64,000 bases of DNA, taken from assembly GCF_025128095.1 (NCBI RefSeq), contig NZ_JAHLYT010000071.1, forward strand, positions 124,001 to 188,000. The letters run 5' to 3'. Shown in pieces: positions 553-4,031 of this stretch (its first letter is position 1; each line of letters begins with the position of its first letter). The position numbers were made by a program, and so were the translations under genes. The notes under the pieces were generated by a model. The model made no database searches. It saw only the letters and a program-made list of their open reading frames with translations, and was not told the DNA's origin. This stretch comes from Synechococcus sp. CS-1328. Lineage in GTDB: Bacteria > Cyanobacteriota > Cyanobacteriia > PCC-6307 > Cyanobiaceae.

Positions 553-1809
553 TCAGCGACTGGTTGTCAGGAATGGGCGCGGATCCTGATCGCGGCGATG
601 GTGTTGCGGGATGGCTGGGGGCTGTTCATCGGGGCTGAGAGGATCGAGCCGTGCTGTGTCCTCCAGGGCCTGGCGCAACAGCCGGGCTGAATGGAGAGGC
701 ATGTCACGGGGAACGCTGATGTGATCCCGCAGGTCGCGAAGCCGCACGGCACAGCCCGGAGGCGGGACGCAGGCCGAGCCCTGAATCAGGCGCGTCAGGG
801 CGGCGCGCAGGGCCTGATCAAAACCGCTGTTGGCTGGATGGCGCTCCAGCAGCACGGACCGATGGCGCAGAACCCTGGCCAGAGCGACGGCGGCGGCATC
901 GTCTGGAGCGGCTGCGGAGGTCTCGGGATCGGGCAGCTGGACCGGCCAGGGCCCCTGATCGATGCGTCGGGCGATGGCCTGCTGTTCAGTAGTGCCACTG
1001 GGATAACAGCCTCCCATCTGGGGGGGCAGATCGTGGGCGTGGGTGTGACTGTCGCTCTGGGTGCCGAGGTAGGTGGCGCGTTGCTCGAGGGCCTGGAACC
1101 AGCGATCGATGGCGGGATGCTCCTGACGCAAGGCGTAGGCCTTGTAGTAGAGCAGGCTCGCCGCCATTCGCTCGAGATAGGGCACGAACACGAGGTCGGC
1201 GGTGCTGAAGCCATCCAGAAAGAAGGGACCCTGAGTTTGCTGCAGGGCTGTTTCCATGTCCTTGGCAGCACGGCGATACCCATCACGTCGGCGGCTTTCT
1301 TGCTCGATCGAACGGCTCGGTTCACAGAGCCATTGACACCAGGATCGAAAGATCAGGCGTTCCAGCCGCCGCAAGGGCAGCACAGCTGGATCGTTCATGC
1401 CTGGGCCCAATGGTCCAAAATTGGCTTCCAGAGCTTCGAGGATGTGGTCGCTCTCGGTGACCAGCTGTCCATCGATCTCCAGCGCGGGCAACATCCCTGA
1501 GGGAACCCGTTGGCGGTACCACGACTCCTTCTCGCCGTAGCAGAACATCGTGACCTTGCGGATGCGATAGGGAACCTGCCGCTCCTCCAACCACAGCCAC
1601 ACCTTCTGACAGTACGGGCACCAGGCGTGGTGGTCGCGGTACAGAGTGACCCGAACGGACGTCTCAGGCTGCCCGAACAGCCTCAAGGTCGACTGGGAAT
1701 TGGTTGGACCTTCGACTCGATCCGCCTCGATCGGAGCGAGCCTCTGCAGGGCACCCCAGTCGAGCGGCAGGTCGACTGGCCATGGGGTAGACGAAGAATC
1801 TCTGCTCAT
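553..1809 (-). CDS. Glutathione S-transferase-like protein with thioredoxin-fold N-domain
   Basis: A 418-residue protein if started at ATG 1809; the frame is open upstream to 1854 but without a better start. Residues about 53-135 form a glutaredoxin/GST N-domain with a CPYC motif (Cys64, Cys67) and the typical cis-Pro segment (SGMLPALEIDG) followed by TESDHILEAL. The rest is all-helical GST C-domain plus an extension, longer than ordinary GSTs of about 220 residues. The dithiol motif suggests redox or glutathione-dependent chemistry, but the substrate cannot be told. It is separated from the PII gene by a strong minus-strand terminator, so it has its own promoter. Confidence 0.8.
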   Translation of the reverse strand: MSRDSSSTPWPVDLPLDWGALQRLAPIEADRVEGPTNSQSTLRLFGQPETSVRVTLYRDHHAWCPYCQKVWLWLEERQVPYRIRKVTMFCYGEKESWYRQRVPSGMLPALEIDGQLVTESDHILEALEANFGPLGPGMNDPAVLPLRRLERLIFRSWCQWLCEPSRSIEQESRRRDGYRRAAKDMETALQQTQGPFFLDGFSTADLVFVPYLERMAASLLYYKAYALRQEHPAIDRWFQALEQRATYLGTQSDSHTHAHDLPPQMGGCYPSGTTEQQAIARRIDQGPWPVQLPDPETSAAAPDDAAAVALARVLRHRSVLLERHPANSGFDQALRAALTRLIQGSACVPPPGCAVRLRDLRDHISVPRDMPLHSARLLRQALEDTARLDPLSPDEQPPAIPQHHRRDQDPRPFLTTSR

Positions 1810-1852
1810 GAGACGCATCATCGAGCATGGCGCCTGTCGGCGTGACTGGCGC

Positions 1853-1894
1853 AAAAAAAACCACTCCCTTAGCCCCGAGTGACTTAAGGAGTGG
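1853..1894 (-). terminator. Rho-independent terminator downstream of the PII gene
   Basis: On the minus strand an inverted repeat, CCACTCC-TTA paired with TAA-GGGAGTGG (arms 1861-1871 and 1884-1894, one bulged base), is followed by eight T residues (A8 at 1853-1860 on the plus strand). It lies about 50 bp past the PII stop codon and isolates that gene from the GST-like gene. Confidence 0.8.
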
Positions 1895-1942: not shown

Positions 1943-2284
1943 TCACATGAGGGTGACATCTCCAGACTCACCAGTACGGATACGAATTGCATTTTCAACG
2001 TTGGTGATGATGATCTTACCGTCGCCGATCTCACCGGTCTGGGCGCTCTTGAGCAGAGCTTCAACCACTTTGTCGCAGCTCGCATCGGTCACCACCAGGG
2101 TGAGCAGTGTCTTGGAGAGAAGTCGTGCTTCCACCTTGACGCCGCGGTAGACCTCGGTGTAACCCATCTGCTTGCCGAAGCCCTGCACGGTGGTCACGGT
2201 TATCCCATTGATGCCCACCTCCACCAGTGCGTCCTTGACGGAGTCGAGCTTTTCGGGACGGATGATGGCCTGAATCTGTTTCAA
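1943..2284 (-). CDS. PII-family nitrogen regulator with non-canonical T-loop
   Basis: Trimeric PII signal protein sensing ATP/ADP and 2-oxoglutarate. The frame is open to TTG 2359, but a TTG at 2284 gives 113 residues and puts every PII landmark at its canonical number: Arg9, Thr29, Gln39, Lys58, the GEIGDGK loop (84-90), Arg101 and Arg103. The T-loop departs from GlnB: position 49 is Val instead of Ser (the cyanobacterial phosphorylation site), 50 is Lys instead of Glu, and 51 is Val instead of Tyr (the uridylylation site). Divergent from amt, as expected of a GlnK-type partner of the transporter. No ATG and no clear ribosome binding site near the start. Probably a paralogue rather than the main glnB; that is inference. 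Confidence 0.88.
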   Translation of the reverse strand: MKQIQAIIRPEKLDSVKDALVEVGINGITVTTVQGFGKQMGYTEVYRGVKVEARLLSKTLLTLVVTDASCDKVVEALLKSAQTGEIGDGKIIITNVENAIRIRTGESGDVTLM

Positions 2285-2579
2285 GGCTTTGGCAAGTGGC
2301 TGGAGTTCTATTTTGTCAGGGTTCGGCGCCGGATGTGTAGCCAATGTTGCCAGACGCAATGGCAGATGCTACGAATCGCTAACCGGAGGTCCGCCCGAGC
2401 AGGACTGGCTCGGAGCTTGCGGCTTGAGGAATGACAGGCCCATCGGGGCATGGATTGGCAATTTGGTAGCGACCGACACTTGGCAAAGGTGCCTTAGCGA
2501 GCACTTTTGGACCTCAGGGAAGAGCTTCGTGCTTTCCACTCCCGTGCAGCCTCTGCTTTTTTTCGAGTCATCACGCTCC
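2285..2579. promoter_or_regulatory. Divergent intergenic region between PII gene and amt
   Basis: About 295 bp must hold both promoters. A near match to the NtcA consensus GTA-N8-TAC is present at 2337-2350 (GTA-N8-TGC, one mismatch), 53 bp upstream of the TTG at 2284. A weaker one (GTA-N8-CAC) lies near 2467. Nitrogen control by NtcA is expected for both genes from family knowledge, but neither site is perfect and I could not place a convincing -10 box. Confidence 0.35.
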
Positions 2580-4031
2580 ATGACAGTTGCTCCGCACGCC
2601 CCCAGACGCCACGCCTCGAGGCGTCTGCAGGAGGCGAGTCTGAATGAGGCCCCGGCCCTGCTTTTGCGCAGGCTCCGTGGTCTCACATCCCAGCGCGGCC
2701 TGATCTGGCTGGCCTGCGTGCCCCTGGCCCTCTTCGGTCTGGGGGTGTTCAACCTTTCTGCCCACGCCGCTGAGCTACCTGAGCTCACGTTGGCATTCCT
2801 CTCAAACAATTTATTCATCTTCATCTGCGCGATTCTGGTGATCTTCATGAACGCCGGTTTCGCCATGGTGGAGGCGGGAATGTGCCGGCAAAAGAATGCC
2901 GTCAACATCCTGCTCAAAAACCTGATTGTTTTTGCTCTGGCTGCGAGTGCTTACTGGTTGATCGGATTTTCGCTGATGTACGGCGATCCGGTTGTTTCCG
3001 GTTGGCTGTTCATCAAGAGCACCTTCTTTTTCTTTGATCCGACGGTCACTCCGGACATGGTCAAAGATGGTGCGCTTGTGCCAAGCGTTGACTTCCTCTT
3101 CCAGGTTGCCTTCGCGGGAACATCAGCAACCATCGTTTCTGGCCTTGTAGCTGAGCGCATCAAGTTTAAGGAGTTCGTTTGGTTCTCCTTGATTCTTGTT
3201 GCCTTCATCTATCCAATTGCTGGTTCCTGGAAGTGGAACGCCGAAGGCTGGTTGAACAAACTGGGCTTCATTGACTTCGCCGGCTCCACCCTGGTTCACT
3301 CAGTTGGTGCCTGGGCTGGCTTGGTTGGGGCGATCATTCTTGGTCCCCGTATCGGCAAGTTCGTGGGTGGTAAGCCCATGGCTCTGCCTGGCCACAACAT
3401 GGCGATTGCCACCTTGGGCTGCCTGATTCTCTGGATCGGCTGGTATGGCTTCAATCCTGGTTCCGTTCTCTCGATGAACGAGACAGTTCCCTATGTGGCG
3501 GTCACCACCACTTTGGGTGCGGCTGGCGGAGCCATCTCAGGCACCCTGTTGTCTGCGATCCGTGGCGGCAAGCCCGACCTCACGATGACCGTCAATGGCA
3601 TCCTGGCTGGCCTCGTTGGTATCACAGCCGGGTGCGACTCGTATTCCATGGTGGGGGCCTGGGTGGTTGGCTTCATCGCCGGTGGTCTGGTGGTCTTATC
3701 CGTTGCTGTTGTGGATGGCCTCAAAATTGACGATCCCGTGGGTGCCTGGTCCGTTCACGGCACCTGCGGCATCTGGGGAACCCTTGCAGTTGGTCTGTTC
3801 CATCAGGGAAACGGCCTGCTCTATGGCCATGGTTTCAACCAGCTGGGTCTTCAGATCCTGGGGGTTGTTGCCTATGCCATCTTCGCGATTGTCACCTCCT
3901 TGATTGCTTGGTCAGTGCTTGGAGGAATGACCGGAGGCATCCGTGTTCACGAGTCTGAGGAGATCGAAGGTCTCGACATCAGCGAGCATGGTATGGAAGC
4001 CTATCCCGACTTTGCTCCTTCTGCAAAGTGA
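2580..4031 (+). CDS. amt: Ammonium transporter (Amt/MEP/Rh family)
   Basis: Inner-membrane channel for uptake of ammonium. The ATG at 2580 gives 483 residues; the frame is open to 2289 but the extra 97 residues would overlap the PII gene and have no Amt character. A basic N-terminal stretch and a first hydrophobic segment (about 41-63) resemble a signal peptide ending in SAHA, as in other cyanobacterial Amt1 proteins. The conserved pore histidines are His240 (in VHSVGAWAG) and His393 (in VHGTCGIWG). The C-terminal cytosolic tail contains the usual GxRV...EEIEGLD regulatory segment that contacts PII proteins. Divergent from the PII gene. The stop codon starts a 15-bp tandem repeat. Confidence 0.95.
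   Translation: MTVAPHAPRRHASRRLQEASLNEAPALLLRRLRGLTSQRGLIWLACVPLALFGLGVFNLSAHAAELPELTLAFLSNNLFIFICAILVIFMNAGFAMVEAGMCRQKNAVNILLKNLIVFALAASAYWLIGFSLMYGDPVVSGWLFIKSTFFFFDPTVTPDMVKDGALVPSVDFLFQVAFAGTSATIVSGLVAERIKFKEFVWFSLILVAFIYPIAGSWKWNAEGWLNKLGFIDFAGSTLVHSVGAWAGLVGAIILGPRIGKFVGGKPMALPGHNMAIATLGCLILWIGWYGFNPGSVLSMNETVPYVAVTTTLGAAGGAISGTLLSAIRGGKPDLTMTVNGILAGLVGITAGCDSYSMVGAWVVGFIAGGLVVLSVAVVDGLKIDDPVGAWSVHGTCGIWGTLAVGLFHQGNGLLYGHGFNQLGLQILGVVAYAIFAIVTSLIAWSVLGGMTGGIRVHESEEIEGLDISEHGMEAYPDFAPSAK

Follow-up and report, generated by a model that had tools for sequence, protein, structure and literature searches.

Arg47 of the PII T-loop enters and plugs the pore of the ammonium transporter AmtB, and 2-oxoglutarate spreads the T-loops, which then cease to fit (PMC6243067, PMC3198391). 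The Y51A variant of E. coli GlnK retains both association with AmtB and release (PMC4274968). In cyanobacteria, the PII protein of Synechocystis controls Amt1, and the S49D exchange weakens this control (PMC6603209); Ser49 is reported to be unphosphorylated in Prochlorococcus and Anabaena, which keep the residue (PMC4285133). A 2024 paper describes cyanobacterial PII as encoded by a single glnB (PMC11121479). Extra picocyanobacterial PII copies are already known: glnB2 occurs in 12 of 67 freshwater and 3 of 17 brackish picocyanobacterial strains (PMC9361551), and GlnB-B is a second PII of Synechococcus WH5701 (Laichoubi et al., 2011, cited in PMC7344720).

The locus described here lies in a window of 64,000 nucleotides, the whole stretch of Synechococcus sp. 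CS-1328 DNA that was analysed. It consists of a GlnK-type PII gene (1943–2284, minus strand) and, divergent from it, an amt1-type ammonium transporter gene (2580–4031, plus strand; 483 residues; PF00909, 410 bits; TIGR00836). The pair resembles E. coli GlnK–AmtB in the position of the PII gene beside amt, the invariant Arg47, the polar ligands and the Amt C-terminal motif, but the window PII has no Tyr51, carries Lys50 in place of an acidic residue, is divergent rather than co-transcribed and scores below the GlnK equivalog cut-off. With GlnB of S. elongatus and Synechocystis it shares fold, length and Thr83, Gly84 and Glu85 of the B-loop, whereas Phe11, Lys40, Arg45, Ser49, Glu50 and Phe92 are replaced and the gene lies beside amt. 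The genome also encodes an amt2-linked GlnK (contig C33), which is likewise without Ser49 or Tyr51; however, its gene lies directly behind a different amt gene and in the same orientation, and the protein retains Arg45, Glu50 and Lys40 and groups with GlnB (100/97). Archaeal GlnK proteins (Archaeoglobus fulgidus GlnK3, Methanothermococcus GlnK) also gate Amt via ADP and ATP/2-oxoglutarate and have T-loop Arg47, but the window PII is distant from them in sequence and has lost the Phe92 adenine stacking of the methanogen proteins. The glnB2 genes (15 of 132 strains) and the window-type PII (23 of 251 genomes) are similarly frequent second PII copies of one group of cyanobacteria, and may or may not be of one PII type. 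In the accessible literature, including the texts on glnB2 and GlnB-B, we found no description of the T-loop of the window PII or of its pairing with amt1.

The PII gene and its product

The gene starts with TTG (2284) and encodes 113 residues with the T-loop motif YRGVKV. Its relatives back this start, since the frames of three of them (G139, G222 and G204; 114–115 residues) open only 1–2 codons before the homologous position. The product matches Pfam PF00543 with 93 bits (cut-off 25) over profile positions 1–102 of 102, and falls below the cut-offs of the E. coli-type NCBIfam equivalogs (PRK10858, 121 versus 202 bits; PRK10665, 109 versus 181 bits). A single-chain structure model has a modest mean pLDDT of 75.8 and a disordered T-loop, so it confirms the PII fold and is silent on the T-loop; the best matches in a structure search with the model were S. 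elongatus PII.

Taking TTG 2284 as Met1 gives the canonical numbering, in which the T-loop (codons 37–55; 2120–2176, minus strand) reads Gly37-Lys-Gln39-Met-Gly41-Tyr-Thr-Glu44-Val-Tyr46-Arg47-Gly48-Val49-Lys50-Val51-Glu-Ala-Arg-Leu55. The original prediction had placed Val49, Lys50 and Val51 in the loop, and the translation bears this out: Ser49 is replaced by valine, as is Tyr51, the uridylylation site. The prediction went on to state that neither phosphorylation nor uridylylation is possible. Both sites are indeed gone, but other T-loop residues, Tyr46 for example, could be modified. On the sequences compared, loss of Ser49 and Tyr51 alone does not distinguish the window PII, because the GlnB of the same genome has Phe51, the amt2-linked GlnK has Asn49 and Phe51, and E. 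coli GlnK Y51A continues to regulate AmtB.

Conservation of the T-loop and the ligand pocket

Of 251 Cyanobiaceae genomes sampled, 23 in five genera carry window-type PII, and none of the genes contains a stop. The YRGVK motif is invariant across this clade; in 22 aligned orthologues so are Glu44, Tyr46, Arg47, Gly48, Val49, Lys50 and Ala53, and position 51 is V, I, M or L. Val49 and Lys50 are each encoded by two codons, with synonymous variation only, so that the altered residues are no product of chance or of sequencing. For 21 coding sequences pN/pS is 0.28 overall and 0.30 outside the T-loop, but falls to 0.17 within the loop and to 0.12 for the apex (residues 45–54). The low T-loop ratio and the purely synonymous codon changes indicate that the altered loop is maintained and has not decayed. 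As judged from the alignment, what is special about the window PII is the loop as a whole, in which a charge reversal at position 50 and hydrophobic side chains at positions 40, 45, 49 and 51 are combined and conserved.

The original prediction also held that the ATP and 2-oxoglutarate ligands remain. This is true of the polar ligands only: Arg9, Gln39, Lys58, Lys90, Arg101 and Arg103 are invariant in the 22 orthologues, and Thr29 and Gly87 are also present in the window PII, but Lys40 is replaced throughout the clade by Met, Leu or Phe (Met40 in the window) and Phe92 by Ile, Val, Thr or Trp (Ile92 in the window). Phe92 is common in PII proteins and is not required for membership of PF00543; it flanks the adenine in other PII proteins such as methanogen GlnK (PMC8395244). 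Without Phe92 and Lys40 the protein may bind its effectors differently.

PII contacts NAGK through its T-loop, its B-loop and the β1–α1 connection. We take the contact residues to be Phe11, Arg45, Ser49, Glu50, Thr83 and Glu85. The window PII keeps Thr83 and Glu85, and has Glu11, Val45, Val49 and Lys50 at the other positions; with four of the six contacts changed, we infer that its binding to NAGK is weak or absent.

The amt1 partner and its neighbourhood

The divergent pairing with amt, noted originally for the window, proved general: in each of the 22 loci where this could be tested, an amt1-type gene and the PII gene lie head-to-head, and the 23rd PII gene lies 492 bp from a contig edge. 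The partner Amt1-type proteins are about 71–87% identical to that of the window and keep the C-terminal motif GIRV..EEIEGLDI.EHGMEAY. In one relative (G120) the amt gene (L122, 5252–6711) is split across two frames near residue 177, owing to a frameshift or a sequencing error. The genome of the window has two amt genes, the products of which are 31% identical.

Across the family, 236 of 251 genomes have an Amt match, mostly close to the window's Amt. Amt1 is thus nearly universal without window-type PII and does not need it; the PII supplements Amt1 in a minority of genomes. Traced along the Amt tree, the presence of window-type PII requires a minimum of two and a maximum of five changes. The Amt1 proteins of the window's genome and of G081, which belongs to another genus, fall into a different lineage from most PII-linked Amts, and the PII/Amt1 pair is therefore not tightly co-inherited. 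The window PII is 94% identical to that of G001 (same genus) and 72% to that of G081. It seems from these trees and identities that amt was exchanged while the PII gene stayed. The window Amt1 (2580–4031) is closer to that of G081 (87–88%) than to that of G001 from its own genus (80–81%); the loci compared with the window are L133 (2104–3543) and L120 (4664–6118). Amt residues that appeared to track window-type PII (Phe79, Cys83, Gly329 and a C-terminal Lys) were rejected as markers, there being too few independent contrasts.

Downstream of the PII gene lies a glutathione S-transferase-like gene (553–1854, minus strand; PF13409 and other GST models), a syntenic neighbour present in nearly all loci with enough flank. 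It has no role in the mechanism proposed below, and we know of no link between it and nitrogen control. The PII gene is followed by a candidate intrinsic terminator (1853–1894, minus strand), made up of a hairpin and eight U (fold −20.2 kcal/mol, z −2.3); a consensus terminator scan, restricted to loops of at most 8, did not report this hairpin.

The shared promoter region

The amt1 and PII genes share an intergenic region of 295 bp. NtcA-activated promoters have the layout GTA-N8-TAC, followed after about 22 nt by TAN3T. Upstream of the PII gene is an NtcA-like box (GCAACATTGGCTAC; 2337–2350, minus strand), weak in the window alone, with a −10-like element, CAAAAT (2310–2315, minus strand), 21 nt after it. 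Nearly all of 22 relatives have GNN-N8-TACA ∼ 65 bp before the PII start, the TACA half being conserved, and in most of them the spacing to the −10-like element is 21–23 nt. On the amt side, the NtcA-like box (GTAGCGACCGACAC; 2466–2479, plus strand), which taken from the window alone does not score above shuffles, is followed after 22 nt by the −10-like element CACTTT (2502–2507, plus strand). Here GTA-N8-(A/C)AC occurs at a conserved position ∼ 100–115 bp before amt in 20 of 21 loci, and most relatives have CATTNT at the same spacing of 22 nt. Single-sequence scores of the NtcA-like boxes are modest, with shuffle fractions of up to 0.7 (the window's amt box), so the case for NtcA rests on conserved position among related sequences. 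Both promoters resemble the NtcA-activated layout and are presumably under NtcA control. A sigma-70 promoter scan gave no match.

Other PII genes and the origin of the clade

The original prediction, which set the window PII apart from a global GlnB, supposed a second, canonical glnB elsewhere in the genome. Such a gene is present (C65; Ser49-Glu50-Phe51), and its product is ∼ 53% identical to the window PII. Nor are these two the only PII genes: Pfam identifies four PII-fold genes, which besides C65 and the window gene include the glnK behind the second amt (G000:C33:80925-82518; L002; Asn49-Glu50-Phe51) and C50, which adjoins an SbtA-like gene and therefore probably encodes SbtB. The genome thus carries three PII genes that differ in T-loop type, two of them each linked to an ammonium transporter of its own, and in addition an SbtB-like gene. 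In the family, 16 amt2-type GlnK genes lie directly behind amt2 on the same strand, and none of seven canonical glnB genes examined has amt nearby. Each of the 23 clade genomes has at least one other PII match. The pipX gene is single in all 46 genomes searched, among them the 22 clade genomes searched, so that window-type PII does not fit the correlation that has been reported between pipX and glnB duplications (PMC7344720), and we rejected an explanation by PipX dosage.

In a tree of 113 rows the clade is supported by 99/96 and placed outside a group that unites GlnB and the amt2-linked GlnK (100/97). When the T-loop columns are removed its support is 100/98, and a joint cyanobacterial clade with GlnB is not rejected (p-AU 0.70). 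The full tree gives no support for a recent glnB duplicate; an ancient cyanobacterial paralogue may be the origin of the clade. No window-type PII was found outside Cyanobiaceae in a class-wide sample of 390 genomes, where the top matches beyond the family share 54–56% identity and have different T-loops. Transfer from another phylum was discarded: the nearest matches outside Cyanobiaceae are only 53–57% identical and carry other T-loops, and a donor was not found. A phage origin was likewise discarded, the PII proteins on viral contigs being only 38–42% identical to the clade. These contigs (L207–L214) come from a viral collection and may be viral or host DNA.

A proposed gate for Amt1 and its alternatives

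The altered tip of the T-loop is nearly unchanged across 23 genomes, which argues that the protein is probably a dedicated gate and not another copy of the general nitrogen sensor. We consider it probable, from conservation and gene order, that the window PII is a GlnK-type gate, dedicated to the Amt1 of certain Cyanobiaceae and under effector control only, with binding to Amt predicted. Under nitrogen limitation, NtcA would switch on amt1 and the PII gene together from the shared intergenic region. With Mg-ATP and 2-oxoglutarate bound, the T-loops of the PII trimer would point outward and Amt1 would be open. A rise in ammonium with a fall in 2-oxoglutarate would let the trimer, now carrying ADP, bind to the cytoplasmic side of trimeric Amt1 and insert Arg47 into each Amt1 pore; no covalent step would be required. 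The rebuilt T-loop would keep the window PII off NAGK, leaving arginine control to canonical GlnB.

The main rivals of this reading are a different partner and mixed trimers with GlnB. In the former, the window PII would act on PipX, on a nitrate, urea or other transporter or on an unknown protein, and its adjacency to amt1 would reflect shared nitrogen control only. Many transporters are partners of cyanobacterial PII (PMC6603209), the T-loop differs strongly from known GlnK T-loops, and Amt1 works without window-type PII in most genomes; but another partner is made unlikely by the link to amt1, present at 22 of 22 loci, and by the absence of a matched extra PipX, pipX being single in the 22 searched clade genomes. 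Mixed trimers with canonical GlnB (or the amt2-linked GlnK) would dilute the NAGK-binding subunits and would thereby adjust PII output across the cell, not just the gating of Amt1. The PII proteins of S. elongatus and E. coli do form mixed trimers (PMC11121479), and canonical GlnB is available in the same cell. However, the proteins are only ∼ 53% identical, constraint peaks in the T-loop, which is a partner surface, and the fixed amt1 pairing is left unexplained; we regard this as improbable, somewhat more so than a different partner.

Covalent modification elsewhere in the T-loop (at Tyr46, Thr43 or Lys50) would mean that control is not by effectors only. Tyr46 and Lys50 are invariant, and T-loop tyrosine nitration has been reported in Anabaena (PMC4285133), but Tyr46 is also found in GlnB and the amt2-linked GlnK and is common across PII proteins, and there is no sign of a modifying enzyme, so we hold such a modification to be very improbable. 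A decaying redundant copy without function, suggested by the patchy occurrence in 23 of 251 sampled genomes, is scarcely credible: it is largely refuted by the pN/pS pattern (the T-loop is under the strongest purifying selection), and the lack of stops and the conserved neighbourhood also speak against it.

If the window PII is a dedicated Amt1 gate, the clade would be a natural experiment on what Amt gating needs of a T-loop, with the charge at position 50 reversed and no known modification site, and would also inform how cells avoid cross-talk among several PII copies. We tentatively speculate that PII control could be split by T-loop: GlnB for NAGK and PipX, GlnK for Amt2, and for Amt1 a charge-reversed, unmodifiable PII whose pocket would be retuned because Phe92 and Lys40 are gone, so that each transporter would have its own 2-oxoglutarate/energy threshold, with a CO2-uptake-linked copy in other genera.

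A rule that loss of Ser49 means linkage to Amt was considered and fails, since a further group of Cyanobiaceae PII proteins, from other genera, is without Ser49 (RG[A/T]E[F/Y]T) and is not encoded beside amt (L219, 2984–3319; L220, 3170–3505; L221, 2951–3286; L224, 3007–3342). In the stretch examined of L219, only a fasciclin gene was found. The other three of the four loci adjoin genes for an SfLAP-family membrane protein, a fasciclin-domain protein and a ChpXY CO2-hydration protein, a neighbourhood that suggests that this group is tied to CO2 uptake.
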